Source of the DNA: Citreicoccus inhibens
GTDB taxonomy: Bacteria; Myxococcota; Myxococcia; Myxococcales; Myxococcaceae
DNA length: 64,000 nt
Reading direction: 5' to 3'
Assembly (NCBI RefSeq): GCF_019039035.1
Contig: NZ_JAHNZT010000005.1
Span: 1-64,000, forward strand
Under the pieces are notes generated by a model that was not told where the DNA came from, did not search any database, and was given only the letters and a program-made list of their open reading frames with translations. The translations under genes were made by a program, and so were the position numbers. Shown here one piece after another: positions 4,481 through 64,000 of this stretch; the first letter of the stretch is position 1, and each line of letters begins with the position of its first letter.

Positions 4481-4483
4481 CGC

Positions 4484-4864: not shown

Positions 4865-5226
4865 GATGTGCCTCCTTTCGAGTTAGAGCGTCGCTGCCAG
4901 GCGCCGCTGACAGGACGCCGCGCGCCACCTCGCGTCACGAGCCCACGTCCTGGCAGGAACATGGGGTGTTCATCCCAGGCGCGGGACTCCCCGCGCGCCG
5001 CCGCGCAACGTGACCGACCGGGGACGCAGCGGGAGAGCGACGAGGCGCGTGCGTGGGAATGAAGCGCGCCCTCGCGAGGTATGGCGAGGAAGGAGACGAG
5101 CGCAGGCCGTGCGGGCTCGGCGGGGAAGTGGACGTTTGTGCGCACGAATTCCTTGCGGTTGCGCTGCCGCTGCACCATGACTCTGGCGTCGGGCCGGGAG
5201 ACTCGGGACTGCCGAAGAACGGTGCC
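4865..5226. other. Intergenic region, 362 bp
   Basis: This divergent spacer must hold the promoters of the small membrane gene (minus) and of the Mla operon (plus). The Shine-Dalgarno sequence of the minus gene is at its left end. I see no convincing promoter boxes, repeat or extra gene; the ORFs here are short and antisense. Confidence 0.5.
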
Positions 5227-6533: not shown

Positions 6534-6539
6534 CGCGCC

Positions 6540-48822: not shown

Positions 48823-49113
48823 ATGGCCGAGATGTGTGAGCACATCCTGCAAGCAGGCGACCCGGAGCCGCGGACCGAGGGCTGCGAGGAGTGCCTGAAG
48901 ATGGGCGACACCTGGGTGCACCTGCGGCGCTGTTTGTCGTGCGGGCACGTGGGGTGCTGCGACTCGTCCAAGAACAAGCACGCGACGAAGCACTGGCGCG
49001 CGACCCAGCACCCCGTGGTCCAGTCCTTCGAGCCGGGCGAGGACTGGCTGTGGTGCTTCAAGGACGAGGTCTTCGTGGACGAGCGACCCTCGGCGGACGA
49101 AGCGCGCGTGTGA
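48823..49113 (+). CDS. UBP-type zinc finger protein
   Basis: 96 residues from the ATG at 48823 with GGGAGG upstream. The zinc finger is complete: CEECLKMGDTWVHLRRCLSCGHVGCCDSSKNKHATKHWR..HPVVQSFEP, with the C-x2-C, C-x2-C, Cys and His spacing of ZnF-UBP domains. In eukaryotes these bind free ubiquitin C-termini. Bacterial members are small stand-alone proteins of unknown target. It converges on the htrA-like pair. Confidence 0.85.
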   Translation: MAEMCEHILQAGDPEPRTEGCEECLKMGDTWVHLRRCLSCGHVGCCDSSKNKHATKHWRATQHPVVQSFEPGEDWLWCFKDEVFVDERPSADEARV

Positions 49114-49119
49114 GGACGC

Positions 49120-49146
49120 GCGGCTCCGGTCGAGCGCCGGAGCCGC
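49120..49146. terminator. Bidirectional hairpin after the UBP zinc finger gene
   Basis: A perfect 10-base stem (GCGGCTCCGG / CCGGAGCCGC) with a 7-base loop lies between convergent stops. Confidence 0.7.
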
Positions 49147-49156
49147 GGTCCCCTCG

Positions 49157-50071
49157 TCACGCGGCGGCGGACTCCAGGCGCGGATGGGCCCGCACCGTCG
49201 TCGTCTTGCGGCGTCCCTTGCGGAGCACGTCGAGCTGGACGACGTCCGCCGTGGACAGCGCCATCAAACGCTGGAGGTCGTCCACGCTCTGCACGGGCCG
49301 ACCGTTGATGCTCAGGAGCAGGTCCTCGGCGACGAGGCCCGCATCATCCGCGGGCGCGCCGGGCTTGACCTGAAGCACGCGCACCGCGCGCGGTTGGCCA
49401 ATGTCCCTGGCCAGCCCGGCCTCCAAGGCGACCGCCGTGGCGGCGATGCCCAGGAACTTCCGCTCCACCTTGCCCCGCTGAATCAGCAGGCTGGCCACCC
49501 AGGCAGCGGTGGCCGCGCTCACCGCGAAGCCGATGCCCTGTGCGTCTGGCAGCACCAGCGTGTTGAGGCCCACCACCTGCCCCTGCGTGTTGAGCAGCGG
49601 GCCGCCTGAGTTGCCCGGGTTGATGGCCGCATCGGTCTGGAGCATGCCCTCCAAGATGACGTCGTTGGGCAACGTGATGGAGCGGTTGATGGCGCTCACC
49701 ATGCCCAGCGACACGGATTGCTCCAGGCGGAAGGGATTGCCGATGGCCACCACGAGCTGACCCACGCGGACCTTCTCTGGATCCGCCAGGGGCAACGTGG
49801 GGAAGGCATCGCCCTCCGCGCGCACCACCGCGAGGTCGGTGGGGAGGTCCACGCCCACGAGTGATGCGCCGCGCTCCTCGCCCGTGGAGAGCTGGACTCG
49901 GAGCTTGCGAGGGCTGCGCATCACCACGTGGCGGTTGGTGAGGACGTAGCCATCCGGCGTGAGGAAGAGGCCCGTGCCGTGGCCGCGCGCGTGCTCCACG
50001 CCCACCACTGCGGGCGAGGCCCGCGCCACGAGGTTCTCGAGGTCCTCGGAGAGTTGTTGCAGGAACTTCAT
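49157..50071 (-). CDS. HtrA/DegP-like serine protease, no signal peptide
   Basis: 304 residues. The trypsin-like triad is seen as TNRHVV (His), TDLAVV (Asp) and INPGNSGGP (Ser). One PDZ domain follows (about 215-300: VLQVKPGAPADDAGLVAEDLLLSINGRPV). There is no signal or membrane segment, so it should be cytoplasmic unless a distal start was missed. It is 12 bases behind the second htrA-like gene, with which it forms a unit. Confidence 0.83.
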   Translation of the reverse strand: MKFLQQLSEDLENLVARASPAVVGVEHARGHGTGLFLTPDGYVLTNRHVVMRSPRKLRVQLSTGEERGASLVGVDLPTDLAVVRAEGDAFPTLPLADPEKVRVGQLVVAIGNPFRLEQSVSLGMVSAINRSITLPNDVILEGMLQTDAAINPGNSGGPLLNTQGQVVGLNTLVLPDAQGIGFAVSAATAAWVASLLIQRGKVERKFLGIAATAVALEAGLARDIGQPRAVRVLQVKPGAPADDAGLVAEDLLLSINGRPVQSVDDLQRLMALSTADVVQLDVLRKGRRKTTTVRAHPRLESAAA

Positions 50072-50083
50072 CGCGGCGCTCCC

Positions 50084-50968
50084 TTACGCTCTCTTGCCAA
50101 TGGTGATGGACACGTCGCGTGCCTCGCCCGCGCGCAGCACCTTCGCCGTCACGGTGGTGCCCACCTTCTCGTCGCCCAGGTAGCCGAGCAGGTCCTCCAC
50201 GCCGTGCAGTGATTGGCCGCCCAGGCTCACCAGCACGTCGCCCAGGAGCAGCCCGGCGCGGTGCGCGGGGCCGTTGGGGTCGACAGACAGGAGGATGAGC
50301 CCGGTCTCTCCCTGGGACTCAGGCAGTCGCACGGGATGGGCTCCCACGCCGAGGTAGCCCCGGCGAATGCCTCCGTGCTCCACGAGGCCATTCGCCACGC
50401 GGGTGAGCGTGCTGCCCGGAATCACCACCGCGGCCGAGCGGGAGAACGCCGCCGTGAGCAGCCCGAGGAAGCGCCCCTGGGCATCCACGAGCGCGCCGCC
50501 CGAAAAGCCAGGCGGGAGGTCCGCGTCGGTTTCCAGGTAGTGGTCCACGCGGCCTCCGGCGTGCGTGCGCCAACCTTCTCCGAACGCGCTGACGATGCCG
50601 AGCGTGGCGCGCGCGGTGCGACCCGGACGTCCCACGGCGAGGACGAGGTGACCCACCTTCACGTCGTCGAGCAGGGTGGGCGTGAGCGGCGTGAGACCCG
50701 AGGTCTCGGTCTTCAGGAGCGCGAGGTCGGTGCTGGGGTCGCGGCCCACCAGCTCGGCGGAGACCGTCCTCCCGTCGGCGAGGCCGAGCTGGATGTGGCC
50801 TTCATGCTCGACGGCATGGCTGGTGGTGAGGATGTGCCCGTCGTGACCGAAGACGAGGCCCGTGGCGCCACGGCGGCGACGGGCCTCCACGCGGACGATG
50901 CTCGGCGCGATGCGCTCGACGACGGATGCAATGGATTGAGAGAGGGAGACGAGGGAGTCGGCGGACAT
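50084..50968 (-). CDS. Second HtrA-like serine protease with PDZ domain
   Basis: 294 residues starting MSADSLVSLSQSIASVV (ATG at 50968). The triad lies in TTSHAV, TDLALL and LPPGFSGGA; the GFSGG in place of GNSGG still keeps the serine. A PDZ domain (about 205-290) contains LLSVDPNGPAHRAGLLLGDVLVSLGG. Again no signal peptide. It lies 114 bases downstream of the ROK-like gene, so common regulation is possible. Confidence 0.8.
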   Translation of the reverse strand: MSADSLVSLSQSIASVVERIAPSIVRVEARRRRGATGLVFGHDGHILTTSHAVEHEGHIQLGLADGRTVSAELVGRDPSTDLALLKTETSGLTPLTPTLLDDVKVGHLVLAVGRPGRTARATLGIVSAFGEGWRTHAGGRVDHYLETDADLPPGFSGGALVDAQGRFLGLLTAAFSRSAAVVIPGSTLTRVANGLVEHGGIRRGYLGVGAHPVRLPESQGETGLILLSVDPNGPAHRAGLLLGDVLVSLGGQSLHGVEDLLGYLGDEKVGTTVTAKVLRAGEARDVSITIGKRA

Positions 50969-51082
50969 GGGAGATTCCTTTCGAGGCAGAAGGTAAAGGC
51001 CGCGAGGAATCGCCACATCGGCGGACAGGCTAGGGCGTGGACCTGTCCGTTCGGACAGGTCCCTCCCCATCCGAAGGGGGCG

Positions 51083-51940
51083 TCACGTTCGTTCGAGCAG
51101 GGCCCCGCCAGGCCCAAAGCCGAGCGTGAGGCACAACACCTTGCGGCCCTTCACGCGCGCGTCGCGTCGCGCGGACTCCGCGGCCAGCTCGGCATCGTTG
51201 AGCACCCACACCGTACCGCCGCTCATGGGCAGACCCGCCTGGGTGACGATGTCTGTGATGAGGGAGGCGTGTCCTTCCCAGCCGTAGGTGCAACCTCCGG
51301 GGCGCAGCGCCTCATCCAGTGGACAGGGCAGGGCGAGGCACAAGGCGTCCGGTGCCTCGGCGTTCGTCTCGATGAACGTGTGCATCGTGCCCGCGATGAA
51401 TCTCACGGCCGCGGCGAGGTGGTGCCCATCCTTCGGGCGGGGCATGCCGATGAACAGCCACGGCAAGGTCACGGGGCTGCGCTCGACGAGCCACGAGACA
51501 TGGGGGCTCGCGCACTTGATGCTGGTCTGTCCAACGTCCACGGAGAGGGGGGCGCGTGCCGAGAGGGATTGCAGCACGGCGAGCCCCGCGTGCACGGGCG
51601 CGAAGCGGGGGGCCTCCGCGACGTGCACGGCGCAGGGCAGTGCGGTGGTGACACGCGCGAGTTCGGCGTTGAAGCCCTCCAGGCAGGCGAGCCCGCCGCT
51701 GAGATAGACGGCGTCCGGTGCGTGCTGGCGCACGAGGAGCTCCAGCGCGGCCTGCACCGTGGCCACGAGCCTCGTGGTGAGCAGGGGCTCGGGGACTCCC
51801 GCGCGACGGGTCGCGTCCACTCGGACCGCTCCCGCCAGCTCCCAGAACTCCTGTCCCAGCACGGGCAGGTTCCACACCTCCAGCGGCGTGACGCCCGGAG
51901 GGTGATGCCGGCGCGCGAGCCAGGGTCGAGCGTCGGTCAC
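51083..51940 (-). CDS. ROK-type sugar kinase with swapped lobe order
   Basis: 285 residues from a GTG that overlaps the glycosyltransferase stop (GTGA). Normal ROK kinases run phosphate-1 loop, then the phosphate-2 region LTxGxGxGGAL, then HHP..G.T.E and the YLGGG adenosine loop. Here HHPPGVTPLEV (12-22) and VYLSGGLA (78-85) come first. DVGQTSIKC (135-143), LALPCPLD (202-209), LNDAELAA (248-255) and LTLGFGPGGALL (271-282) follow. The protein therefore looks circularly permuted. Lengths of both parts fit one complete ASKHA fold. It probably phosphorylates a sugar or its analogue for the adjacent glycosyltransferase; the substrate is inference. Confidence 0.75.
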   Translation of the reverse strand: MTDARPWLARRHHPPGVTPLEVWNLPVLGQEFWELAGAVRVDATRRAGVPEPLLTTRLVATVQAALELLVRQHAPDAVYLSGGLACLEGFNAELARVTTALPCAVHVAEAPRFAPVHAGLAVLQSLSARAPLSVDVGQTSIKCASPHVSWLVERSPVTLPWLFIGMPRPKDGHHLAAAVRFIAGTMHTFIETNAEAPDALCLALPCPLDEALRPGGCTYGWEGHASLITDIVTQAGLPMSGGTVWVLNDAELAAESARRDARVKGRKVLCLTLGFGPGGALLERT

Positions 51941-53139
51941 GCGACCAGACCCGCGATGCGCTCGGCGGCTTCTCGGGCCCCGTCGCGTGCGTTGTAGGCC
52001 GCGGAGATGGCGGACACCTTGCTCCGGATGGCGGACTCCGGCGCCATGAGCTGGCTGAGCGCCGCGCGGCACTCCTGCACGGTCATTCGCGAGGGGGAGA
52101 GCGCTCGCCCGGCCCCTGCCTTCTCGAGGAAGTGCGCCTGCACCGGCTGATCATTACAGACGGGCAGCAAGAGGAGCGGAACGCCCGCGGTCATCGCCTC
52201 CATCACGGAGTTGGCGCCGCCATGCGAGATGAACACGGACGTGCGCCGCAGGAGCTGGCGTTGCGGCACATACGGAACGGCCACGACGTCACCGGGCAGG
52301 GTGTCGGGGAAGTCCGTGCCGGCGAGCTCTCCCGCGGTGAGGACCAGGGTGACGCCCAACGGCGCGGCGGCCTCCGCGATGAGGCGGAACAGCTCGGGCT
52401 GCCATGAAATCTGGCTGCCGAACGAGGCATACACCACGGGCTTGTCGCCCAGGCGGTGCCACGGGAAGTCCACTTCGTCGCCTCGGCCCTCGGGCGGAAT
52501 CGAGGGGCCCACGAGGTGCGTGGCGGGCGGCACACGCGCGTCGGCGCCGACGAGGTGCTCGGTCGCGAAGACGGTGTTGAGGCGCGGTGACAGACACTCA
52601 CAGGTGCGGAAGCGCGCGTCGAAGCCGTAGCGGGCGAACAAGGCCTGACGGTCTGCCGCCAGTGCTCTCACGTTGCGCAAGAGCGCCAGGTCCAGCTCCG
52701 GCTCCAGCAGCGTCAGCGCCGAGGACACTCCCGCCCAAGGGATGCCCTCCGCGTGCGCGGCGAGCACGGCCGCGTACTGCATTCCATCCAGCGCCATCAC
52801 GTCGGGGCGGAAGGCGCGCACCACCTCGCGCACGGAAGGGATGAGCGCGGGCACCGCGTCCAGGAGCAGCCCGCGGATCCACGCACCCAAGGCGGCTTCG
52901 TCTTGGACGAGCCTCGCCAGGGCCTCGCCGCCGGTCTCGATGGCGGGAGCGGCGGGGCGCGCGGTGGGGAGGTGGAGCAGCTCGACGCCGAGGTGTTCGA
53001 GCTGTGGCGCGGGCTCGGGCAGGCAGAGCCAGCCGACGGTGTGGCCCATGCGGCGCAGCCACTGCGCCACGCCGACCATCGGGTTGAGGTGGCCCTTCTC
53101 GGGCGAGGTGGCGATCAGGATTCGGGACATGCGAGACAT
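51937..53139 (-). CDS. GT1 (UGT/MGT-like) glycosyltransferase
   Basis: 400 residues. The N-terminal acceptor domain starts RILIATSPEKGHLNPMVGVAQWLRRMGH, and the C-terminal donor domain has VVYASFGSQ, VVAVPYVPQRQLLRRTSVFISHGGANSVMEAMTAGVPLLLLPVCNDQPVQA, i.e. the HGG...E...D-Q plant-UGT/MGT motif. These enzymes glycosylate small molecules with NDP-sugars. It overlaps the AsnB-like gene upstream by 25 bases (or 16 if Met4 is the start) and the ROK-like gene downstream by 4, so the three genes are tightly coupled. Confidence 0.88.
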   Translation of the reverse strand: MSRMSRILIATSPEKGHLNPMVGVAQWLRRMGHTVGWLCLPEPAPQLEHLGVELLHLPTARPAAPAIETGGEALARLVQDEAALGAWIRGLLLDAVPALIPSVREVVRAFRPDVMALDGMQYAAVLAAHAEGIPWAGVSSALTLLEPELDLALLRNVRALAADRQALFARYGFDARFRTCECLSPRLNTVFATEHLVGADARVPPATHLVGPSIPPEGRGDEVDFPWHRLGDKPVVYASFGSQISWQPELFRLIAEAAAPLGVTLVLTAGELAGTDFPDTLPGDVVAVPYVPQRQLLRRTSVFISHGGANSVMEAMTAGVPLLLLPVCNDQPVQAHFLEKAGAGRALSPSRMTVQECRAALSQLMAPESAIRSKVSAISAAYNARDGAREAAERIAGLVA

Positions 53140-54386
53140 GCCTCGGGGTGAGCTTGGAGCATGGCGAGTGACACCAGTCGCATCAACAGGCGATCCACCG
53201 CCGCCGCGCGGGCGTCCTCCGGAGCGAGCCGCGCATGGTCATCCAAGAGCGCGAGCACCGCGACCGGGTCGATGACCTGGAGTGGTTCCAGCCGATGAGG
53301 CGAGAGCCATGCGCGGTACAGCTCCAGCCAGCGGTGGCGCATGGGGCTGGAGAGAGCCGTGTGGGCATAACGCGGCGTCTTGCGCGCGAGCCGGACCTCG
53401 TCGGGGACGCGCGTGCGCACCGCGTGACGGAAGAGCCACTTGCCCAGGTCACCTCGCATCAGCGCCGAGGTCGGGAGCGCGAGCACGAAGCGGGAGAACG
53501 TCTCCTCCAGGTACGGCGTGTGGACGGTGAGGCCGTGGGCGCGGGCGCCGCACAGCTCGGGCGGCAAGACCCGCTCTTGTAGAATCCAGGCCGCGTGGCG
53601 GACTTCGTCGGAGAGCCGCGACTCCCACGGCGCGAGGTCCCACGGCATGGTCGCGGCGTCCGAGACGGGGCCATGCGCGCTGGGGCGGAGCACCTGGGAC
53701 GCGAGCCTCCGGTCCTCTTCCACCTGGGCGCGGGTGTTGGCGCGGGCCCTCGGATTGCCAAGCATCACTTCGTCCGCGCCCGCGCCGCTGAGCAGGGCCG
53801 GACCGACACCGCGTCGCTTGGCCTCCGCGTAGAAGGCGAAGCTGGCGATGGCGCGGGCATTGAGGATGACGCGTCGGTTGGCGAGCACCGCGGGCTCGAA
53901 CAGGTCGGGCAGACAGCCATCGGGGATGGGCACGTCCACCTGTTCGACTCCGGCCACGCGGGCCATGAGTCGGGCGTTGGCGCGCTCGGCTGCATCCGCG
54001 AAGTGGACGTCCATGGTCCACGCGCGGATTCGTCCCGGAGCGTGGCTCGCGGCCATGGCGCAGAGCGCCGCGCTGTCGACCCCGCCGCTGAGGCTCACGT
54101 CGCGCGTGCCTGTGTCGAGCTGGGCTCGGACGGCTTGCTCGGCGTGCGCGAGCAGGGCATCGGCCAGCGCGTCCTCGTCACGTGGCGTGTCCTCGCTTCG
54201 CGCGATGTCGGGAGGAGGGACTGGGAGGCATTGGGAGCCTCGGAACAGGCTCGTGGTGGGAGGGAGCGCGTGACGCAGGAGGGCCGCGACGGACGCGGGG
54301 GCGAGCCCGGGCTCGGCCCTTTCGGTGGCTCGCCACGAGGGCAGTCGGGCGAGGGGCCCGCGCGTTTCTCCGAGAGGATGCGGCAC
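53115..54386 (-). CDS. Asparagine-synthetase-like amide-forming enzyme lacking the glutaminase domain
   Basis: 423 residues from a GTG. The synthetase domain has the PP-loop LSGGVDSAAL (about 98-108), LLSGAGADEVMLG (198-210) and the later ARAIASFAFYAEAKR, RKTPRYAH. The N-terminal 95 residues hold only the last part of the Ntn domain (LRHALPPTTSLFRGSQCLP), and the Cys2 nucleophile is absent. This resembles beta-lactam synthetase or lasso cyclase relatives, which adenylate a carboxylate and close an amide without glutamine hydrolysis. Divergent from the radical SAM gene with 53 bases between them. Product unknown. Confidence 0.8.
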   Translation of the reverse strand: MPHPLGETRGPLARLPSWRATERAEPGLAPASVAALLRHALPPTTSLFRGSQCLPVPPPDIARSEDTPRDEDALADALLAHAEQAVRAQLDTGTRDVSLSGGVDSAALCAMAASHAPGRIRAWTMDVHFADAAERANARLMARVAGVEQVDVPIPDGCLPDLFEPAVLANRRVILNARAIASFAFYAEAKRRGVGPALLSGAGADEVMLGNPRARANTRAQVEEDRRLASQVLRPSAHGPVSDAATMPWDLAPWESRLSDEVRHAAWILQERVLPPELCGARAHGLTVHTPYLEETFSRFVLALPTSALMRGDLGKWLFRHAVRTRVPDEVRLARKTPRYAHTALSSPMRHRWLELYRAWLSPHRLEPLQVIDPVAVLALLDDHARLAPEDARAAAVDRLLMRLVSLAMLQAHPEACLACPES

Positions 54387-54439
54387 GGGGCGATGGTGCA
54401 GGCGCGCGAGGTTCAGGGCAACCCTGGCAGGATGCGGCC

Positions 54440-55246
54440 GTGCATTACGACCTCCACGACGGTCGCATCCTCACCTGGGCGCTGGAGGCGCACGCCGCCA
54501 CGCACTGCAACCTGCGCTGCGTGCAGTGCTGCCCCTTGTCTCCCCACTTGCCTGCCTGGACCGTGTCGCCCGAGCGGCTCGGGGATGAGCTGCGGACCCT
54601 GGCCCGTGTCCTCAAGCCGCAGGTGTTCAAGTTCACGGGAGGCGAGCCCTTTCTGCATCCGGACCTGCCGGCGTTGCTTGATGTGGCGCGGGCCTCGGGC
54701 ATCAGCGAGCAGTTCTCCGTCACCACGAACGGGTTCCTCGCGCAGAGCGCGCCGGATGCGGTCTACGAGCGGCTCGACCGGATGACGTTGTCTGTCTATT
54801 CGTCGCGGCCGTTGCCGGAGCGCTCCATTGCGCGCATCACGGAGCGGTGCGAGCAGCACGGCATCTATCTCACGGTGAAGCGCATCGACGCGTTCCAGCA
54901 GCTCACCCCCGATTCACCCTGGGCCTCGGAGGCACAGACGCGAGAGGTCTTCGCGCGTTGCTGGCTCAAGACGCGGTGCCACCTGGTGCACCAAGGTCGC
55001 TTCTACCTGTGCACGCGGCCTCCGCATGTCGAGACCGTGGTGCGGCGCGAGCATCCGGAGTTGCCTGCGTTGTCGGAGGTGGATGGCGTATCCCTGGACG
55101 GTCCAGAGTTGCTCGCGCGGATGCTCGGCTATCTGGAGCGAGAGACACCGTTGGAGACCTGTCGGCGATGTCTGGGGTCCAGTGGTCCCTGGGCGCCCCA
55201 CGCTCAACTCCCTCGGGGCGCCGAGCAGGACAGGCGCGAGGGGTAG
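54440..55246 (+). CDS. Radical SAM protein with auxiliary-cluster cysteines
   Basis: 268 residues from the GTG at 54440. The SAM cluster motif CNLRCVQCC (C23, C27, C30) and GGEP at 67-70 are canonical. C174, C180, C191, C241 and C244 in FARCWLKTRC, FYLC and CRRCLGSSG suggest a SPASM/twitch-like second iron-sulfur cluster. Such enzymes modify peptides or small molecules. The neighbouring AsnB-like, GT1 and ROK genes point to a shared pathway. It reads away from them, and two tiny ORFs follow. Confidence 0.87.
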   Translation: MHYDLHDGRILTWALEAHAATHCNLRCVQCCPLSPHLPAWTVSPERLGDELRTLARVLKPQVFKFTGGEPFLHPDLPALLDVARASGISEQFSVTTNGFLAQSAPDAVYERLDRMTLSVYSSRPLPERSIARITERCEQHGIYLTVKRIDAFQQLTPDSPWASEAQTREVFARCWLKTRCHLVHQGRFYLCTRPPHVETVVRREHPELPALSEVDGVSLDGPELLARMLGYLERETPLETCRRCLGSSGPWAPHAQLPRGAEQDRREG

Positions 55247-55249
55247 GCG

Positions 55250-55336
55250 ATGCGGCGGGCCGGCCGCTTCGCCTGTGGCGAGGTGTGGCGGCTCGGACAG
55301 GTGCTGCGCCCGGGGACGCCACGAGTCGCGAGATGA
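55250..55336 (+). CDS. Tiny ORF behind the radical SAM gene (28 residues)
   Basis: ATG four bases after the radical SAM stop. The product MRRAGRFACGEV... has eight arginines and one Cys. Its stop overlaps the next ORF's ATG (ATGA). It may be a peptide of the cluster or chance; no ribosome site is convincing. Confidence 0.25.
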   Translation: MRRAGRFACGEVWRLGQVLRPGTPRVAR

Positions 55337-55422
55337 CTCAGGCAGTGTCTGAGCCGCTGTCGATTGAAAGCACACGCTCGGACGTGGGGGTGAAGCCAGA
55401 CATCGAACACTCGGGGATGTGA
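55333..55422 (+). CDS. Second tiny ORF (29 residues), coupled to the first
   Basis: MTQAVSEPLSIEST... ending HSGM. Three quarters of the codons end in G or C, as in coding DNA here. The 4-base overlap with the first tiny ORF is suggestive of coupling. A modified-peptide precursor is possible but unproven. Confidence 0.25.
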   Translation: MTQAVSEPLSIESTRSDVGVKPDIEHSGM

Positions 55423-55510
55423 CGGAGCCGGGACCCTTGCGTCGCGGAGTGTTGGCGAGACACTGCCCGACGGACACGTAGGGTTCCGAGTCACCATCCT
55501 CGGAGGTCTC

Positions 55511-57370
55511 ATGATGCGTTCCCCCCGTCTGGCGCGTTCACTGCGTGCCACGATTTCTTGTCTCGTCGGTGTCTGTCCCCTCCTGACCGGATGCGACGAC
55601 TCGGGAGGACCCCCGCCCGTCACCGTCGTTCCCCAGGCGGCTGACTTCTCGCCGCGGACGCTCACCGTCCTCCAGACCAGCGACCTGCACTCCAACATCT
55701 TCGCGTGGGACTACTTCACCGGGAACGCCGACGCGAAACGTGGCCTGGCCAAGGTCGCCTCGCTCATCAAGCAAGAGCGCGCCAGGAACCCCGACTGCAC
55801 CCTGCTCATCGATACCGGTGACACCCTCCAGGGCACGCCGCTCGGCACGTATTACGCCCTCGTCGACAACAAGCCCCAGCACCCCATGGCCACCGCCATG
55901 AACGAGCTGGGCTACGCCGCCATGGCGCTCGGCAATCACGAGTTCAACTACGGGCTCGACGTCCTCGGGAAATTCAAGGGCGAGGTTCACTTCCCCATCC
56001 TTGGCGCCAACGTGCGCCACGCGCTCGACGGCTCCGAGGCCTTCACGCCCTATGTCCTCCGGAATGTGTGTGGCGTCACCGTGGGCATCCTGGGACTCGT
56101 TACCCCAGGTGTCACCACGTGGGAGCGCTCGGAGAACATCCCGGACCTGCGGTTCGATGCTCCGCTGGCAACCGCGAAGACCTACGTGCCTCGGCTGAAG
56201 AGGGCGGGCGCTGACGTCATCGTGGTGGCCATTCACAGTGGACCGGACAAGCAGCCCACCGGGAACGCCAGCAACGCGGACTCGTGGCTCGCGGACTATG
56301 CGGACCCCACGAAGTGGGCTGACCGCGGCAACCTCCCGGGCGAGAACGAGGCCGTACAGATTGCCCAGGGCGTGCCCGACGTGGACGTGCTCCTCACCGG
56401 GCACACCCATCAGCCCATCCCGAAGATGCTGCTCCACAACAAGGATGGGCGCGAGGTCCTCCTCACCCAGCCCAACCGCTGGGGCAGCCACCTCGCGGAG
56501 GTCCAGCTCCAACTCACCTGGAATGATGCCCACTGGATCGTCAACGGCCATGACTCGCGGCTCCTCGCGGTGGATGCGGCGGTCTCGGAGGACGCGGAGG
56601 TGGCGCGGCTCTCCCAGGCCGCGCACGACACCACCCTCGCGTATGTGAATCGCAAGGTGGGCCACACCACCGAGGCGTTCCCCGGGGGCTTCGCTGGGCG
56701 ATACGTCGACAGTCCCCTCGCGGACCTCATCAACCTCGTGCAGGAGGAGGCCGCGCATCAGGCGGGTTTTGACGTGGACCTGTCCCTGGCGGCCCTCTTC
56801 TCCAACGAGGGCGCGCTGCCGGCCGGAGACCTCACCCTGCGCGACGCATACAGCATCTACATCTACGACAACACGCTGTATGTGATGGAGATCAACGGCT
56901 CCATCCTGCGCCGTGCGTTGGAGGTGAATGCGCGCTACTTCGCCACGCTCGATGGCAACCACCTGCCCGCGAAGCCCGAGGACGCGAAGGCCACCGCGCC
57001 CAGCGTGCCGGACTTCAACTGGGACCTCTACTCAGGCATCGAGTACGGCTACGACCTCACGCGGCCCGCGGGCGCTCGCCTCACCCACCTGCGCTTCCTC
57101 GGCAAGGACGTGACCGACGACCAGGTCTTCCACATCGCCATCAACAACTACCGCGCGGGCGGAGGCGGCGGCTACGACATGTTCCGCGAGGGCCATGTGC
57201 TCTGGACCTCCGCCGATGGCGTTCGCGACTACATCGCGAGCTATCTGACCGCGCACTCCAACCTCTCTCCGCGCGACACGAACACGTGCAACTTCTCGCT
57301 CACTCCGGACCTCTACGGCGCGTACTTCGCTCCCACTTTGGGGCCGGCGAAGTGTGGCGCGGCGCCGTGA
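55511..57370 (+). CDS. 5'-nucleotidase/2',3'-cyclic phosphodiesterase-type lipoprotein
   Basis: 619 residues with GGAGG upstream. A signal with lipobox LLTGC is followed by the metallophosphatase domain: LQTSDLHSNIFAW, LIDTGDTLQGTPL, ALGNHEFNYGLDVL, AIHSGPD and LLTGHTHQPIPK. The C-terminal 5'-nucleotidase domain (about 390-610) has DLINLVQEEA, FSNEGALPAGDLTLRDAY and INNYRAGGGGGYDMF. CpdB/UshA-type enzymes release nucleosides and phosphate from nucleotides outside the cytoplasm. It is single and converges on the histidine kinase gene. Confidence 0.9.
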   Translation: MMRSPRLARSLRATISCLVGVCPLLTGCDDSGGPPPVTVVPQAADFSPRTLTVLQTSDLHSNIFAWDYFTGNADAKRGLAKVASLIKQERARNPDCTLLIDTGDTLQGTPLGTYYALVDNKPQHPMATAMNELGYAAMALGNHEFNYGLDVLGKFKGEVHFPILGANVRHALDGSEAFTPYVLRNVCGVTVGILGLVTPGVTTWERSENIPDLRFDAPLATAKTYVPRLKRAGADVIVVAIHSGPDKQPTGNASNADSWLADYADPTKWADRGNLPGENEAVQIAQGVPDVDVLLTGHTHQPIPKMLLHNKDGREVLLTQPNRWGSHLAEVQLQLTWNDAHWIVNGHDSRLLAVDAAVSEDAEVARLSQAAHDTTLAYVNRKVGHTTEAFPGGFAGRYVDSPLADLINLVQEEAAHQAGFDVDLSLAALFSNEGALPAGDLTLRDAYSIYIYDNTLYVMEINGSILRRALEVNARYFATLDGNHLPAKPEDAKATAPSVPDFNWDLYSGIEYGYDLTRPAGARLTHLRFLGKDVTDDQVFHIAINNYRAGGGGGYDMFREGHVLWTSADGVRDYIASYLTAHSNLSPRDTNTCNFSLTPDLYGAYFAPTLGPAKCGAAP

Positions 57371-57374
57371 GCGC

Positions 57375-59540
57375 TCACGAGTCGCGTGCGTGATGCGCGC
57401 GGGGCAGCTCCACGGTGAACGTGGAGCCTCGTCCCAGGAGGCTCTCCACTCGCACCGTGCCGCTCATGGCCTCCACGAGCGTCCGGGTGATGTAGAGCCC
57501 CAACCCCAGGCCGCCGTAGTGGCGGTCGGACACCGCGCGCTCGAAGCGGCCGAAGATGCGCGGCAGGTGCTCGGGCGCGATGCCGATGCCCTCGTCGCGC
57601 ACCGTGAGCCGGGCGCGCTCGGGCCCCTCGGCGAGCCGCAGGTGGATGGGACGCCCCTGGCCGTACTTGATGGCGTTGTCCACCAGGTTCATCACCACCT
57701 GCTCCAGCCGGAGCCGGTCCCACCACCCGATGATGGGCACGTCCGCACCCTCCAGTTGGAGCGGTGAGCCCATGCGCACGGCCTGCGCCTCGTGCCGTCC
57801 CACCAGCTCCCGCACGAGCGCGGCCAGGTCCACCTCCACCGCGTCCAGCCGCAGCCGCCCCGAGGCGATGCGCGAGACATCCAGCAGCGTGTTCACCAGT
57901 TCTGAGAGCTTCTTCACCTGTCGCGAGCCCACCTCCACGTAGCTCTCCACCAGCGGGCGCGGCAGCATCCCGGCGGTACGGCTCAGCTCGCGTGAGAGGG
58001 ATTGCAGCTTGAGGCTCAACGGCGTGAGCGGGGTCTTGAGTTCGTGGCTCGCGATGGAGAGGAACTCATCGCGGAGGTGGATGGCTTCCTGGGCTTCGCG
58101 ATACAGGCGCGCGTTCTCCATGGAGAGCGAGGCCCGGCTCGCCAGCTCGCGGAAGAATGACAGGTCGATGTTCGTGTAGTGCCGGCCCGAGTGGGTCGTG
58201 AAGCACGTGAGCACGCCCATGGTCCGCTCTCGCACCACCAAGGGGACGATCACGAACGAGCGAGGTCGGATGGCGCGCATGATGCTCACGTGCTCCACGC
58301 TGTGGCCGCTCGCCTCCAGGCGCGCATCCGTGAAGTCCTCGATGATGAGCGCTTCGCCACGCAGCAGGGCCTGGGTGGGGGGATGCAAGGGATTGCCGGC
58401 CAGCACGGCGGTGAACCCTCTCGCGCGTTCCGCGAGGGGCGCGTCCTCGGGCGCGGCGTGCGCCACCTCCACCCGCTTGAAGGTGCCGTCCGCCATCGCC
58501 ACGTCCACGAAGCACCAGTCCGCCAGCCGAGGCACCGCGAGCCTCGCCATGTTCTTCAGCGTGGCCTCGTAGTCGAGCGAGGAGGCCAGGGTGGCGCCCG
58601 CCTCGGCCAGCATGCGCAGCCGCTCTTCTCCGTGGCGAAGCTCGGCGGTCAGCGCCTCCGCGCGCTGGCGGGCCTGCGCCAGGTCCGTCACGTCGAAGCC
58701 GAAGCCCGCGATTCCATCCACCTGCCCCTGCGAGTTGCGCGTGGGCTGGTACACCAGATTGAAATAGACCTCGTGCTCGCCGCCGTCGGAGCGCGGGACG
58801 CGAATGGGCATCTCCCTCCCGACGAACGGCTCGCCCGAGGTGTAGACGCGGTCGAGCAGCGAGGCGATGACCTCGGCCTCGGCGGTGGGCACGGCCTGCC
58901 GGACGGTGCGCCCCACGAGCTGACGGTGGCCCAGCAGCTCGTTGTTCGGCGGATTGGACAGCTCGTAGATGTGCTGGGGGCCTCGGAAGAGCGCGATGTG
59001 CGCGGGGGCCTGCATGAAGAGCGCGTGGAGGCGGGCGCGCTCGTTCTCGGCCTCGCTGCGGGCCGCGCGCTCCCGCTCCAGCAGCAGCGCGCGCTCGGCG
59101 TTGGTCTGCCGCAGGCTCACGTTCAGCTTCGTCACGAGCAGCGACAGCATCGCGAAGATGCCGAGCGACACGACGTCCGAAGGACGCACCCAGTCCCCCT
59201 GGTGCCCCAGGGGGAAGAAGGCGCTGAAGGAGATGAGCGACAGCGCCGTGTTCATGAGCGCCGGGCCCCAGCCTCCCCACCAGCCCGCGATGGCGACGGC
59301 GCCGTAGAAGAACAGGAAGGGGTGGGTGGCCATGAAGACGCCCAGGACGCGCTCCAGGAACAGCGCGATGCCGAAGGCCAACAGCGCCACGCTGTACTGT
59401 CCGACCGCGGACGTCTTCACCTGGACCACCGCGAGTCCCGTGCGTGACTGTCCCCGAGCCTCGGGGACCCTGGGCGACGCGACATTCTCATGTGCGACAA
59501 CGCCAGACGCTCGAGCTGTGGGCTCGGACTGTGCGGGCAT
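57375..59540 (-). CDS. Membrane sensor histidine kinase (PAS, GAF, HisKA, HATPase)
   Basis: 721 residues from the ATG at 59540; a TTG six bases earlier fits the GGGAGG site better. Three to four transmembrane helices (about 45-140) form an MHYT/DUF4118-like sensor (FYGAVAIAGWWGG). A coiled coil leads to a PAS domain (about 175-290), a GAF domain (315-470) and the kinase. The phosphoacceptor is in FLSIASHELKTPLTPL, and the ATP site has NLVDNAIKYG, DEGIGIAP and GGLGLGLYITR. No response regulator lies next to it. Confidence 0.88.
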   Translation of the reverse strand: MPAQSEPTARASGVVAHENVASPRVPEARGQSRTGLAVVQVKTSAVGQYSVALLAFGIALFLERVLGVFMATHPFLFFYGAVAIAGWWGGWGPALMNTALSLISFSAFFPLGHQGDWVRPSDVVSLGIFAMLSLLVTKLNVSLRQTNAERALLLERERAARSEAENERARLHALFMQAPAHIALFRGPQHIYELSNPPNNELLGHRQLVGRTVRQAVPTAEAEVIASLLDRVYTSGEPFVGREMPIRVPRSDGGEHEVYFNLVYQPTRNSQGQVDGIAGFGFDVTDLAQARQRAEALTAELRHGEERLRMLAEAGATLASSLDYEATLKNMARLAVPRLADWCFVDVAMADGTFKRVEVAHAAPEDAPLAERARGFTAVLAGNPLHPPTQALLRGEALIIEDFTDARLEASGHSVEHVSIMRAIRPRSFVIVPLVVRERTMGVLTCFTTHSGRHYTNIDLSFFRELASRASLSMENARLYREAQEAIHLRDEFLSIASHELKTPLTPLSLKLQSLSRELSRTAGMLPRPLVESYVEVGSRQVKKLSELVNTLLDVSRIASGRLRLDAVEVDLAALVRELVGRHEAQAVRMGSPLQLEGADVPIIGWWDRLRLEQVVMNLVDNAIKYGQGRPIHLRLAEGPERARLTVRDEGIGIAPEHLPRIFGRFERAVSDRHYGGLGLGLYITRTLVEAMSGTVRVESLLGRGSTFTVELPRAHHARDS

Positions 59541-59789
59541 GGACAAGGTGATGGCCTCCCCCCGGTCCCATCGTAGCGACGGACGTGTCTGGGCGGCAGG
59601 GACCCCCTTGTTGAGGCGTTCACTTGAGCGGCGGCGCGAGGAATCGGACACGCCGCGGTCTCCGAGGGGCCGACACCGGTGTGCCCGGAGGTGGGTGGCG
59701 ATGTCGGGTGTTGGACCGGGGTCTGCCCCCAGCGCGTGCGCGGCCCGCCTGACCCCTGGGTCCGCACCAGCCCCAGCCGCGCCTCCGGG

Positions 59790-60311: not shown

Positions 60312-61559
60312 ATGTCTGGGAGCTACCCCGTGGGACTGTCGGTTCCCCGCCTGTGCCTCGCGTTGTTGGCCGCCGCCGCGGGGGTGGTGGCGTGCGACCC
60401 CATCGTCGTGAAGCCGCTGGACGTCCCGATGGCGAAGTTCCCGCCCAACGGCGGCGGCTCCAGTCACAACCCGGTGGGCGACGTGCTGGATGGAGGGTGG
60501 GCGGAGCCGGTTCCGCCAGGCCTGGAGCGCCGGCCGCAGGCCCTGCCTGCGTGGGGCGCGTGCATCGGCGGCTGGCAGAGCATGGAGCTGGCGCGAGGCA
60601 CCATCTCCGCGGGCTTCACGCTGGGGGCGGGGGACGAGGGGCTCTACGCGTACTCTCGCCCGGGCGGCATCAAGACCGGCAACGTGTCATCGGACCCGTG
60701 GCTGGAGGAGCCGGGGTTTCGCGGCACGCCGCACCTGGCGGGGCTGAAGGTGGATGCCTCCCATGCGTTGCATCTGCTCTATGACGCCCGCGCGGAGGAC
60801 TCGGAACTGAGCGCGCCGTCGCTGGTGTACGCGGGCAGCAATGCCGGCGGGCGGTGGCGGCGCAGCCTGGTGGGGACGGGCACCGCGATGGCGTTCGACC
60901 TGGATTCGCGAGGGGTCACGCACGTCCTCTACGTCAGCGATGCGCAGGGCGGTGAGCTGTACTACGCGAACGACCGGCTCGGGGTGTGGACCGCCACGGA
61001 CCTGGGCGTCGCCACCGACATGGAAGGCGCGGTGCTGCGGGTGGACGGTCTGGGCAACAGCCACGTGGTGTACAGCACGCTGGAGGACTCGCGGCTGCAC
61101 TACCTGACCAATGCCTCGGGCGCGTGGGTGGATGAGGAGGTCCGCGCGTACGGCTATGGGCAGTCCCTGGACCTGGATGTCATGGGCGTGCCCCACGTGA
61201 CGTTCTCGGACGGCGACCTCTGGTATGGCGTGCGACGGGATGGCGCCTGGTCGCTGTCGCGCATTCGCACGGGCGCGGACGCGCAGACGACGCTCGCGGT
61301 GGATCAGCTCGGCATGGCGCACCTGGTGGGCGCGGACAGCCAGGGCACCTTCGTGCTGTACATGACCAACGCGAAGGGGGCGTGGCGCGAGCTGCCGGTG
61401 ACGTCTCGGATGAAGCCCTACTCGGTGAACCTGGCGAGTGAGCGGCTGCTCTCGGTGGACAGCCAGGGGCGCGCGCACATCGTCTGGGTGAAGGTGGTGC
61501 TCATCGACCGGGAAGGGAACCGAGACATCCTGCTCCAGTACTCGCGTCAGTGCCCCTGA
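60312..61559 (+). CDS. Beta-propeller lipoprotein, unknown
   Basis: 415 residues from the ATG at 60312. The lipobox GVVAC follows a good hydrophobic stretch. From residue 100 about six repeats of 45-50 residues can be seen, each with a core like LDSRGVTHVLYVSDAQGGELYYA or VDGLGNSHVVYSTLEDSRLHYL, which fits a six-bladed propeller. It may bind a ligand on the outer membrane. Its 3' end overlaps the convergent ligase gene by 13 bases. Confidence 0.75.
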   Translation: MSGSYPVGLSVPRLCLALLAAAAGVVACDPIVVKPLDVPMAKFPPNGGGSSHNPVGDVLDGGWAEPVPPGLERRPQALPAWGACIGGWQSMELARGTISAGFTLGAGDEGLYAYSRPGGIKTGNVSSDPWLEEPGFRGTPHLAGLKVDASHALHLLYDARAEDSELSAPSLVYAGSNAGGRWRRSLVGTGTAMAFDLDSRGVTHVLYVSDAQGGELYYANDRLGVWTATDLGVATDMEGAVLRVDGLGNSHVVYSTLEDSRLHYLTNASGAWVDEEVRAYGYGQSLDLDVMGVPHVTFSDGDLWYGVRRDGAWSLSRIRTGADAQTTLAVDQLGMAHLVGADSQGTFVLYMTNAKGAWRELPVTSRMKPYSVNLASERLLSVDSQGRAHIVWVKVVLIDREGNRDILLQYSRQCP

Positions 61560-62872
61560 GGTGTCACGAGGCACCGGAACGGCTGAGGCTTGGCGGGTGC
61601 GCTCCACGCCGCGGCGTCCTCGTGGCGCACGGCCACGCGTGGTGAGGCCCAGCCCAGGTTTCGCAGCGCCGCGACGAGCCGCTCCGTCAAGGCGTGGGCC
61701 TCCGGCTCCGAGGCCCCGGCCAGCTCCAGCAGGAACCCCTCGGGCGCGTCCTGCGTGAGTCGGAAGGCGCGCAGCGCGTGGTGCTTGAACACCCACGCCA
61801 CGGCCCACGCATCCACCGCGCGGCCCGTGGGCGCGAGGAAGCGACACGCGCCCCGTCCGCCGAAGCCCGTCAGCGTCCAGCCGCGGAAGCCGCACGCGCA
61901 CGCATCCCGTCGCACCGTGCCGCGGTCTCCCGGCCGATAGCGCAACAGGGGCAGCACGCTGGGGCGCAGGCGCGTCACCACCACGTCGTCCGAGTCCGGC
62001 TCCAGCCAGACATCGGGAGCGAAGACATGGAAGTGCCCGGGCGTGCGCAGACACTCCCACGCGAGCGGCCCGGTCTCGGTGGTGGCGTAGTAGTTGAGCA
62101 CGGGCACGCCGAGGTCGCGCGTGAGGGTGTCGCGCAGCGCGGTGGGCAGGTGCTGCGCGGACGTCAGCATGAGCGCGGGCCGAGGCAGCTCCGGCCGCGC
62201 GGTCCACCAGCGCAGCCCCTCGGGGTCCGAGAACACCACGGCCGGACGCACGCGGTGCAGCCGCTCGGCCGCGTCGGCGCGCAGCACGGAGACGCGGTGC
62301 AGGGCGCCATCCTCCAGGATGGGCAGGCGCACCGAGTACTCCAGTCCGCCGGGCAGCGCGTCCAGCAACACCACGCGGGGCCGCCGAGGCAGACGGGCCC
62401 CGGCGCGCGCGAGCAAGAAGCGCAGCACGGCCCACATCAGCAGGCAGTCGCGGCGGTCGCGCACGACGTTCACGGGAGCGCCCGTGGTCCCCGAGCTGCG
62501 CACCACCACGCACTCCGACGACGCGGTGGGCAGGGTGGGGATGGCGTCCCAGTGCGCCGCGAGCGTCGCGCGCTCCAGGACGGGGAAGTGCCGCAGGTCG
62601 TCCAGGCCACGCAGGTCGCCGGGATGCATCCCCGCGTCGCGCAGCCGCCGCGCATGGAAGGGCGAGGCGTGCAGGGCGAGCCGAAGTCCGTCGAGTCGGG
62701 CCTCCACGCGCGCGCGGGCCTGGGCCTCGTCCGCGAGTGAGGCGAGCGCGGACAACTCCCGCGCGACGGCCTCCGCCCAGGGGATGTGCGGGCGCTGTGT
62801 CGCGGTGTCTCGGCGGATCCTCGCCCGAGGCGCGACGCCCAGGTCCGGCGCGAGGACGGAGACAGGAGACAT
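61547..62872 (-). CDS. PaaK/CapK-like adenylate-forming enzyme
   Basis: 441 residues. The ATP motif SSGTTGAPVNVV (about 128), the central YYATTETGPLAWEC and LLRYRPGDRGT with CACGFRG are those of the phenylacetate-CoA ligase/CapK/coenzyme F390 synthetase group. These activate a carboxylate as AMP ester and transfer it to CoA or an amine. Substrate unknown; there are no phenylacetate genes here. Confidence 0.82.
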   Translation of the reverse strand: MSPVSVLAPDLGVAPRARIRRDTATQRPHIPWAEAVARELSALASLADEAQARARVEARLDGLRLALHASPFHARRLRDAGMHPGDLRGLDDLRHFPVLERATLAAHWDAIPTLPTASSECVVVRSSGTTGAPVNVVRDRRDCLLMWAVLRFLLARAGARLPRRPRVVLLDALPGGLEYSVRLPILEDGALHRVSVLRADAAERLHRVRPAVVFSDPEGLRWWTARPELPRPALMLTSAQHLPTALRDTLTRDLGVPVLNYYATTETGPLAWECLRTPGHFHVFAPDVWLEPDSDDVVVTRLRPSVLPLLRYRPGDRGTVRRDACACGFRGWTLTGFGGRGACRFLAPTGRAVDAWAVAWVFKHHALRAFRLTQDAPEGFLLELAGASEPEAHALTERLVAALRNLGWASPRVAVRHEDAAAWSAPAKPQPFRCLVTPQGH

Positions 62873-62884
62873 GCGCGCCTGGCC

Positions 62885-63448
62885 TTACTCTCGCCAGCCG
62901 CGCGCCTCGGCCTCACGCCGCGCGGCTTCCTGGAGGAGTTGCTCGCGGCGGTCGGCTTCTTTCTTTCGGGCGGCCTCCGCCGCGCGGAAGTCCGCCATGG
63001 CCTTGCGGTAATCGAGTTGCTCCAGGCGCTGCTTCGAGGCCGCTGGAGTCTCGTTCTCGAGCGCGCCCCCCATCGCGCGGATCCACACGCGGAGGAACTC
63101 CTCCTGGCGGAAGGCGTTCGCGCGCACCATCTCCGCGGTGAGCGGTTCAATCTCCTGGAAGAACTGCTCCAGGCGCGCCATGGGTGTGCGAGTCGTGTCG
63201 AGCGCCTTCACCGTCTCCTCGCGCAGCGACGTGGAGGCCAGCACGTGGGCCAGCATGCTCACCTGCTCACGCCAGAGAGCGTGGCCGCGGTGCCGCTCGA
63301 ACTGGACGAAGGCTTCTCGCCGGGGGGGCCGCTGGTTCGCGGCGCGGAACACGTCGCAGATGACGGCCACCGCCAGCTCGTGCGGATAGGGCGAGGCGAG
63401 CGGCGCCGCGGCGAGCTGCTCACGAAGTCGAGGAATCGAGAAGGCCAT
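62885..63448 (-). CDS. Unknown soluble protein with C-terminal coiled coil
   Basis: 187 residues from the ATG at 63448, which overlaps the upstream stop by one base (TGATG). The last 50 residues (DYRKAMADFRAAEAARKKEADRREQLLQ) are charged and helical, as in coiled coils. The first 130 residues are unrecognised. Coupling to the VWA gene suggests a partner role. Confidence 0.7.
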   Translation of the reverse strand: MAFSIPRLREQLAAAPLASPYPHELAVAVICDVFRAANQRPPRREAFVQFERHRGHALWREQVSMLAHVLASTSLREETVKALDTTRTPMARLEQFFQEIEPLTAEMVRANAFRQEEFLRVWIRAMGGALENETPAASKQRLEQLDYRKAMADFRAAEAARKKEADRREQLLQEAARREAEARGWRE

Positions 63449-64000
63449 CAAGTCTCCAGCAGCGCCCGAGAGAGCGCCGCGGCCATGGGTCCGAAGTCGG
63501 ACATCCACGCCACCGTCACCAGGCGAAAGCGCCGGTCCGCCAGCGCCGGCGCGAACACCCTGCGCGCGGCCTGCGCGTCCGGCAGCGCGAGGAAGACCAC
63601 GAGCAGACGCGAACGCCGAGTCGCCTCCACCAGCTGTTTCAGCGCGCCGGGGGCCGACATGTTCGACAGGAAGTCGCTGTCCGAGATGAGGACGCGCAGC
63701 ACATCGGGCGTCTGTTGCGCGGACTCCGTCAGGCGCTCGATGGGGAACTGCGTGCCCCCACCGATGAACTGGAGGAGGAACTCGCGGGCGGTGTCCTCGC
63801 TGTACATCCAGCCGGACTCCAAGGGCGGTCCATCCGAATACACCACGGCCCGCACGCGGCCCTGCTTGCGCAGCGCGGACGCGGACAGCACCTGCGCGGC
63901 CAACGTCATCGCGTTGAGCTGCGTCTGCGGATTGGGCATGGAGCCGCTGGTGTCCAGGTACAGCTCCAAGGCTGGAATGCCGGGCTCCGAGGCGGGCGGA
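63448..64000 (-). CDS. VWA-domain protein, C-terminal part (cut by window edge)
   Basis: The frame is open to the right edge. It contains ELYLDTSGSMPN (MIDAS, D-x-S-x-S), AVVYSDGPP and VLISDSDFL, then LLVVFLALPD. The 5' end lies outside. It resembles the VWA proteins that work with MoxR AAA+ ATPases. One base overlaps the downstream gene. Confidence 0.75.
   Translation of the reverse strand, partial: PPASEPGIPALELYLDTSGSMPNPQTQLNAMTLAAQVLSASALRKQGRVRAVVYSDGPPLESGWMYSEDTAREFLLQFIGGGTQFPIERLTESAQQTPDVLRVLISDSDFLSNMSAPGALKQLVEATRRSRLLVVFLALPDAQAARRVFAPALADRRFRLVTVAWMSDFGPMAAALSRALLET

Follow-up and report, generated by a model that had tools for sequence, protein, structure and literature searches.

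A conserved myxobacterial gene set with a SpeY-like radical SAM enzyme and a kinase of apparently swapped halves, linked to a MoxR/VWA module

We analysed a stretch of 64,000 nucleotides of Citreicoccus inhibens (positions 1 to 64,000 of contig NZ_JAHNZT010000005.1, forward strand; below, the window). Four genes at 51083-55246 encode a ROK-like kinase, a glycosyltransferase (GT) of family GT1, an AsnB-like amide synthetase and a radical S-adenosylmethionine (SAM) enzyme. These genes are co-inherited and form a real, widely conserved set. The most probable function is the biosynthesis of a small molecule that is glycosylated and resembles a sugar or an aminocyclitol, to which we assign a probability of about one half; substrate, product and chemistry are inferred. 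A module of five further genes, which had escaped the first-pass annotation of this DNA, is tied to the cluster. That annotation had recognised no characterised pathway in the gene set, and we likewise found no match to one and no published description of the set in the open-access literature.

Structure of the locus

All four genes were recovered by gene calling and family searches, in agreement with the initial description of three overlapping genes divergent from a radical SAM gene. The kinase (285 amino acids) is encoded at 51083..51940, the GT1 or macrolide-type (GT-B) glycosyltransferase at 51937..53139, and the AsnB-like amide synthetase at 53115..54386, all on the minus strand. The radical SAM enzyme (268 amino acids, GTG start) is encoded at 54440..55246 on the plus strand. 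The GTG start of the kinase gene and the stop of the GT1 gene share the overlap GTGA. Both candidate ATG codons of the GT1 gene, at 53139 and 53130, lie inside the 3' end of the AsnB-like gene, so that the two genes overlap at the AsnB-like stop. The starts of the AsnB-like and radical SAM genes are separated by 53 bp. The span had been drawn from 51083 to 55422; its genes stand, and its right end does not, as the overlapping open reading frame (ORF) that runs to 55422 is not taken as a gene. The GC content in 2-kb steps over 50001-56000 is 0.68-0.71, inside the range of the window, and no composition break is observed. Rfam yielded no matches in 49000-57000. The source genome is 9.05 Mb long.

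Conservation and linkage

Genomes and radical SAM loci are cited below by G and L numbers. Full-length relatives of the radical SAM enzyme were found in eight of 60 related genomes, and the kinase in the same eight; the remaining radical SAM matches in these 60 genomes are partial (E 1.3e-11 or worse). Among 195 genomes of the phylum, the radical SAM enzyme and the kinase occur in an identical set of 49, and the two genes lie on one contig in 48 of these, 983-14,553 bp apart (median 2,666). The exception is G036, where the radical SAM gene is on one contig and AsnB-GT1-kinase-PIG-L on another. The search for the same set in other genomes, where scattered genes would have spoken against a cluster, thus favours the cluster.

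A single-sequence scan of genome contigs for the radical SAM enzyme retrieved no relative. A profile scan of named genomes produced 60 radical SAM loci, 37 of the family (33-78% identity) and 23 more distant or partial. The family loci contain GT1 in 32 cases, the AsnB-like gene in 32, the kinase in 28, GT2 in nine and PIG-L in eight. The 23 other loci contain GT2 in two cases, and none has GT1, the AsnB-like gene, the kinase or PIG-L. Since the hidden Markov models of the neighbours derive from sequences in these very loci, the 23-locus control is the only independent one. The flank survey covered the window and L032-L075; L076-L098 entered the neighbour counts over the 37 and 23 loci. L060 and L038 are one and the same contig.

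Pairwise divergences of the radical SAM enzyme, GT1 and the kinase rise together, with Spearman coefficients of 0.59, 0.73 and 0.75 over 19, 20 and 14 loci; none of 999 permutations gave values as high. As the set is kept in other genera and phyla, a chance neighbourhood is excluded.

The radical SAM enzyme

The cysteines C23, C27 and C30 of the CxxxCxxC motif are present in all 30 aligned sequences, and G67, G68, E69 and P70 (GGEP) are invariant. Six further cysteines are conserved, C174, C191, C241 and C244 in 30/30 sequences, C31 and C180 in 29/30. The five extra cysteines noticed originally are thus a correct count for the C-terminal part but not the total, which includes C31. In the alignment C174, C191, C241 and C244 coincide with the SpeY cysteines, four for one auxiliary cluster, and are predicted to bind such a cluster.

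The predicted structure (predicted local distance difference test score, pLDDT, 91.4) matches SpeY over the whole chain, with Z 32.6, root-mean-square deviation (rmsd) 1.6, 257 aligned residues and 33% identity. The next structural matches are BtrN (Z 15.4) and BlsE (Z 12.6), and Foldseek concurs. Similarly, the family profile matches SpeY with E 1.6e-57 over nearly its whole length, the next match being restricted to the core (1.4e-7). The only PADLOC matches, to pVip (viperin), are weak (42 bits) and generic to the core domain. Both sequence and modelled fold fit a twitch dehydrogenase of the SpeY/BtrN type, and oxidation of a sugar or aminocyclitol is predicted. The title of the SpeY structures in the Protein Data Bank (PDB) names a twitch radical SAM dehydrogenase and nothing further.

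The locus had been proposed to make a glycosylated, cyclised peptide or an unusual amino-sugar product. The first proposal is not borne out: given the match of the model to SpeY, a cyclised peptide is a poorer fit than sugar or aminocyclitol oxidation as a step in making a glycoside, and the enzyme ranks with SpeY and BtrN rather than with peptide maturases. The suggested look for conserved short ORFs near the cluster was also negative, as none of 16 short ORFs in 48900-57500 is a credible precursor of a ribosomally synthesised and post-translationally modified peptide. Where such an ORF is conserved beyond the genus, it is the zf-UBP gene described below, another frame or strand over a longer gene, or a piece of a gene. 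The second proposal agrees both with a radical SAM enzyme of the SpeY/BtrN type and with the PIG-L genes in 8/37 family loci.

The kinase

No Pfam family matches the window kinase at E 1, and there is no match to PF00480 in native order; two ordinary ROK kinases of the same genome (L099, L100) score 186.4 and 196.7 bits. The phosphate-1 motif DxGxT lies in the middle of the protein, and NDA and the phosphate-2 motif GxGxG lie at its end. The residues of these motifs are present in all 28 aligned kinases, T140 in 26. For comparison with ROK kinases, a profile was made of 15 of them (20 ROK loci taken up, 15 passing a motif filter). The C-terminal half of the window kinase matches the ROK N-terminal half with E 1.1e-6, and with 5.3e-7 when the halves are compared separately.

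In a profile search of PDB, columns 129-276 of the kinase correspond to the N-terminal half of glucomannokinase (1woq, E 1.5e-5). The N-terminal half aligns with the C-terminal part of MreB, at E 2e-4 over the sequence and 0.016 for the single domain, and with the C-terminal parts of DnaK/Hsp70, TsaD/Gcp, activases of CoA enzymes and an actin-like ATPase (E 0.11-0.99). Swapped halves of an actin-fold kinase would explain both half-matches. The permutation in the original designation, permuted ROK kinase, is supported, better for the C-terminal half than for the other; the N-terminal half is not shown by sequence to be ROK and is recognisable only as actin-fold.

The predicted structure has pLDDT 93.2, and sequential structure aligners give only middling results (best Z 10.0). 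An alignment with the halves swapped gained no score against ROK; the default alignment covers only the ROK N-terminal part, about 140 columns. A collinear swapped alignment of 253 columns is not relied on because it needs a permissive realignment threshold. The zinc-binding motif of ROK kinases, CxCGx2GCxE, was not seen when the kinase alignment was read by eye. Among the literature matches listed, no description of a permuted ROK kinase was found.

The AsnB-like synthetase and the glycosyltransferase

The AsnB-like protein matches Pfam Asn_synthase (4.3e-39) and has no match to a GATase domain; its open frame of at most 451 codons is too short for a glutaminase domain. The first-pass description as an amide synthetase without that domain is therefore retained. 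The PP-loop LSGGVDS is intact in the window protein, and the pattern SGGxDS is intact in 14 of 19 aligned rows. The family profile is nearest to asparagine synthetase (8sue, 1.7e-23) and beta-lactam synthetase (1jgt, 9.4e-22). In Nannocystis, a full AsnB including the GATase domain is present.

The GT1 protein scores 159.2 bits with the macrolide GT model TIGR01426, below the cut-off of 260, and 78 bits with another macrolide model, whose cut-off is 700. It exceeds the cut-off of the wider UDPGT family PF00201 (73.3 vs 19.5 bits). His14 and Asp115, which we take to be the catalytic residues, and the HGG...NDQ stretch are kept in 19/19 aligned sequences.

Composition of the locus in other lineages

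The 37 family loci include representatives of Myxococcus, Corallococcus, Pyxidicoccus, Nannocystis, Polyangiaceae, Labilithrix, Byssovorax and Paraliomyxa. The family also occurs in the betaproteobacterium Verticiella and in metagenome-assembled genomes (MAGs) of Thermoanaerobaculia (Acidobacteriota), Verrucomicrobia and Paludibacteraceae (Bacteroidota). One of the loci (L050) belongs to a strain of Myxococcus xanthus. In Corallococcus there are insertions between the radical SAM and AsnB genes.

Six loci from Nannocystis, Polyangiaceae and deltaproteobacterial or Polyangia MAGs (L060, L062, L063, L064, L069, L071) combine the radical SAM enzyme, truncated AsnB, full AsnB, GT1, GT2, the kinase and PIG-L. 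Their radical SAM enzymes have N-terminal extensions of about 130 amino acids. Among ten long radical SAM enzymes, the extension has a Pfam match under E 0.02 in one, the Verrucomicrobia protein of L067 (9242-10798), where it resembles the N-terminal domain of chorismatase FkbO/Hyg5 (E 3.2e-5). Relatives of the AMP ligase described below lie in L067 at 828-2375 and 4180-5553.

The gene order in Verticiella is FkbM - APH - radical SAM - truncated AsnB - GT1. In L059 (7181-8925) and L074 (8139-9929), genes of an FkbM-type methyltransferase and an APH-family kinase lie directly upstream of the SpeY-like radical SAM gene (FkbM checked by Pfam in L059 only, APH in both). On the other side of the radical SAM gene of L059 there is an RMNT/CmcI-type gene. 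In the Paludibacteraceae MAG (L070, 7232-10792) a single frame of 1187 amino acids fuses GT1, PIG-L and radical SAM domains; it adjoins a cytidylyltransferase-like gene (6336-7229) and a second radical SAM gene (2410-3315).

A contig titled Comamonas sp. KCTC 72670 (L075, BNCN01000009.1) contains a whole Myxococcus-like locus with a radical SAM enzyme of 77% identity, the HtrA pair, the kinase and the linked module. It is probably a mislabelled or contaminated assembly.

The linked five-gene module

The module genes lie without interruption at 61550-67465 of the contig of the cluster. Its first gene (61547..62872, minus strand) encodes an AMP-forming ligase, which scores 23.2 bits with Pfam AMP-binding (cut-off 29.9). 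The Pyxidicoccus orthologue (L042) is above that cut-off (30.6), and the nearest NCBIfam model is the DVU_1553 AMP ligase, below the cut-off of this model. The second gene (62885..63448, minus strand) encodes a protein of 187 amino acids with no Pfam match over the cut-off and a conserved C-terminus ARGWRE. The third (63448..64000, minus strand, running on to 65103 of the contig) encodes an M48-peptidase and VWA protein, with M48 just at the cut-off (20.3) and VWA_2 below it (20.7 vs 27). It is followed by genes of a protein of 275 amino acids with no Pfam family (65109-65933 of the contig) and of a MoxR-type AAA+ ATPase with AAA_3 over the Pfam cut-off (65933-67465 of the contig).

The order of the module is identical in Pyxidicoccus. 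In G036 the radical SAM and ligase genes are immediate neighbours, and in L058 the four-gene set and PIG-L are nested inside the module. Strong matches to the 187-amino-acid protein were found in 48 of the 195 phylum genomes, namely in 47 of the 49 cluster genomes (not G041 and G186) and in G004; two more matches are weak. G004 is 86% complete and has no full-length radical SAM or kinase match. The gene lies on the radical SAM contig in 43 of the 47 genomes, 1,310-8,341 bp away, and on another contig in four. The ARGWRE tail is present in 20/20 matches to this protein. The M48-VWA protein is strong in the same 48 genomes and has weaker matches in five more.

In 15 genomes behind distant loci (L068 not among them), the M48-VWA protein is strong in that of L058 and in Thermoanaerobaculia, weak in Verrucomicrobia, and absent in 12. 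Within these 15, none was found in the Nannocystis or Polyangia genomes, nor in Verticiella and Paraliomyxa (short radical SAM). All five module genes are present in the Thermoanaerobaculia genome, where the tail reads ARGWQE. There, the ligase and radical SAM genes both lie near contig ends (the end of contig 27 in G195, a contig end in L057), as would be expected if the two genes were neighbours as in G036. Pathway and module occur together in Myxococcaceae, in another Myxococcales family, in a Myxococcales MAG and in the Thermoanaerobaculia MAG.

Other neighbouring genes

A pair of HtrA-like protease genes, which had been named as a possible contributor to the pathway, is a frequent but separable neighbour. 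It was found in the fetched flanks of 15 of 21 Myxococcaceae-like loci, at times close to the kinase gene; the fetched flanks of the 16 other family loci do not contain it. Three genomes that lack the cluster (G008, G028, G029) have an HtrA1 of 73-78% identity, and in G015 HtrA1 lies on another contig; G023 has the cluster but yields no HtrA1 match at E 1e-60. The HtrA pair is thus probably a neighbour and not a part of the system.

Beyond the HtrA pair there is a transporter gene of the major facilitator superfamily (47146-48633, Pfam MFS_1), also seen in L032, L035 and L036; the product may be an exporter. A histidine kinase gene (57378-59651) is found near the radical SAM gene in L032, L033, L035 and L036, with 58.9-93% identity, and possibly encodes a regulator. 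Next to the HtrA pair, Myxococcus loci also keep the gene of a zf-UBP zinc-finger protein (48823-49113). At the left edge of the window, an open-ended fragment (2-142) resembles a transposase remnant by eye.

Proposed function and alternative explanations

In a sugar- or aminocyclitol-type pathway, GT1 would use a nucleotide sugar as donor to glycosylate an acceptor, and where PIG-L is present, the sugar would be N-deacetylated. The radical SAM enzyme would take a carbinol hydrogen and pass an electron to the auxiliary cluster, leaving a ketone, in the manner of BtrN. The AsnB-like protein would adenylate a carboxylate and couple it to an amine other than glutamine-derived ammonia, yielding an amide or a lactam. 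The kinase would phosphorylate a hydroxyl, either to activate a precursor or for self-protection, and the linked MoxR, M48-VWA, AMP-ligase and ARGWRE module may activate or load the product.

Several observations weigh against this interpretation. Kinship to SpeY, an enzyme of spectinomycin biosynthesis, does not fix the reaction. In the window's own genome PIG-L has no match, so that N-deacetylation by PIG-L is unavailable there. The PP-loop of truncated AsnB is degenerate in five of the 19 aligned rows (L060, L061, L062, L064, L069), at loci that also hold a full AsnB. GT1 is missing from the fetched DNA in five of the 37 family loci; this can be excused by insertions in L053 and L055 and by a short contig or contig end in L066 and L068, but not in L074. 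The N-terminal half of the kinase gives E 0.24 with the ROK C-terminal half, and 0.17 when the halves are compared separately, no better than the 0.071 obtained with the wrong half. As 43 of the 49 cluster genomes come from two genera (27 + 16), the genome counts are not independent. Finally, a plain natural product does not account for the role that the linked module points to.

One possibility is that the locus serves to modify a peptide or protein: the 187-amino-acid protein or another would be the substrate, cleaved by the M48 peptidase and modified by the radical SAM enzyme, the AsnB-like protein, GT1 and the kinase. The module is linked in 47/49 genomes, and the ARGWRE tail is invariant in 20/20 matches and nearly so (ARGWQE) in the Thermoanaerobaculia MAG. 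In the available part of one study, some vWA-MoxR systems are described as having a radical SAM enzyme, a C-terminal peptide and a zincin-type peptidase beside them (PMC7159879); the module recalls these systems, which lends protein modification some probability. On the other hand, the M48-VWA protein occurs in three of the 15 genomes behind distant loci, weakly in one, and in none of Nannocystis or Polyangia. The radical SAM enzyme ranks with SpeY and BtrN and not with SPASM peptide maturases, and 48900-57500 contains no credible conserved short ORF. We consider modification of a protein unlikely. A housekeeping pathway for an envelope glycan, a glycolipid or a cofactor, fixed in the myxobacterial clade and not making a specialised metabolite, seems to us just as improbable. 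The cluster is found in every listed genome of the two genera (27 + 16), among the matches listed, shows no composition break, and is accompanied in relatives by GT2 and PIG-L; moreover, MoxR/VWA pairs elsewhere insert metals into proteins, according to the parts available of two papers (PMC13036017, PMC9976466). However, its distribution is patchy over distant phyla, and large genomes from other genera of this family lack it. Neither a flippase nor a polymerase gene was noticed in the gene lists, in which no search was aimed at one.

Salvage or detoxification of a scavenged glycoside or antibiotic by glycosylation and phosphorylation is very unlikely. It would agree with the GT1 matches to macrolide GT models and with the APH-family kinase adjoining the radical SAM gene in L059 and L074, but those matches are far under the cut-offs (159 vs 260 and 78 vs 700 bits). 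To our knowledge, an AsnB-like synthetase together with a radical SAM dehydrogenase is not typical of drug inactivation. That the genes are coincidental neighbours is scarcely credible: mixed strand orientation and the radical SAM-AsnB insertions in Corallococcus, and nothing else, point that way, against identical phyletic sets with linkage, 0/23 control loci and a gene fusion.

Returning to the biosynthesis of a glycosylated small molecule, the linked module allows a more tentative extension, which we put forward as a doubtful possibility. In such a two-part system the permuted-kinase/SpeY-type pathway would make the small molecule, and the MoxR-driven M48-VWA protein, with the adenylating ligase and the ARGWRE protein as an adaptor, would activate it and install it on or in a protein. 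If true, predatory myxobacteria and Acidobacteriota would share a system devoted to modification or cofactor loading, or a conflict system derived from it.

The analysis provides a testable assignment, SpeY-like sugar oxidation, for an uncharacterised radical SAM family of Myxococcus and Corallococcus. It also suggests that there is a family of kinase-like proteins whose halves are swapped, and connects the two families with a MoxR/VWA module. The presence of the locus in a Myxococcus xanthus strain makes a genetically tractable organism available for deletions and metabolome comparison.

Comparison with known systems

The kinase resembles ROK kinases, such as polyphosphate/ATP-glucomannokinase (1woq) and the two ROK proteins of the same genome, in its C-terminal half, which corresponds to the N-terminal half of ROK and includes the phosphate-1, NDA and phosphate-2 motifs. 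It differs in the apparent swap of the halves, in the lack of a Pfam ROK match and in an N-terminal half recognisable as actin-fold only. The AsnB-like protein shares the synthetase domain and the PP-loop with asparagine and beta-lactam synthetases (8sue, 1ct9, 1jgt), but in its family the glutaminase domain is missing or a remnant. Beta-lactam synthetase keeps a defunct glutaminase domain and uses an internal amine, whereas the window protein has lost the domain.

The module is similar to vWA-MoxR ternary systems, as far as these are described in the available part of PMC7159879, in the combination of a MoxR AAA+ ATPase with a VWA protein and in the presence of a metallopeptidase and a radical SAM enzyme nearby. 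In this comparison, made on a few features only, the differences are the fusion of M48 to VWA, the AMP-forming ligase, a SpeY-like and not a SPASM radical SAM enzyme, and an ARGWRE protein that is conserved and not variable. Ternary systems of this kind also include a VMAP-type third protein and a variable effector; the 275-amino-acid protein of the module matches no Pfam family.

The second-best structural match of the radical SAM enzyme, BtrN (4m7s, 4m7t), is the 2-deoxy-scyllo-inosamine dehydrogenase of butirosin biosynthesis. It likewise has a four-cysteine auxiliary cluster, but fits more loosely (12% identity, rmsd 3.8). In the accessible part of its description, BtrN has one auxiliary cluster with four cysteine ligands and catalyses the two-electron oxidation of an aminocyclitol (PMC9012708). 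The closest relative of known structure is SpeY (7wzv, 7wzx, 7x0b). We know of no AsnB-like or permuted-kinase neighbours in the spectinomycin cluster. At 33% identity, the window family has its own H18, K147 and R193 and the extra C31 and C180, while it shares with SpeY nearly full-length sequence and fold, the CxxxCxxC and GGEP motifs and the four cysteines of the auxiliary cluster.

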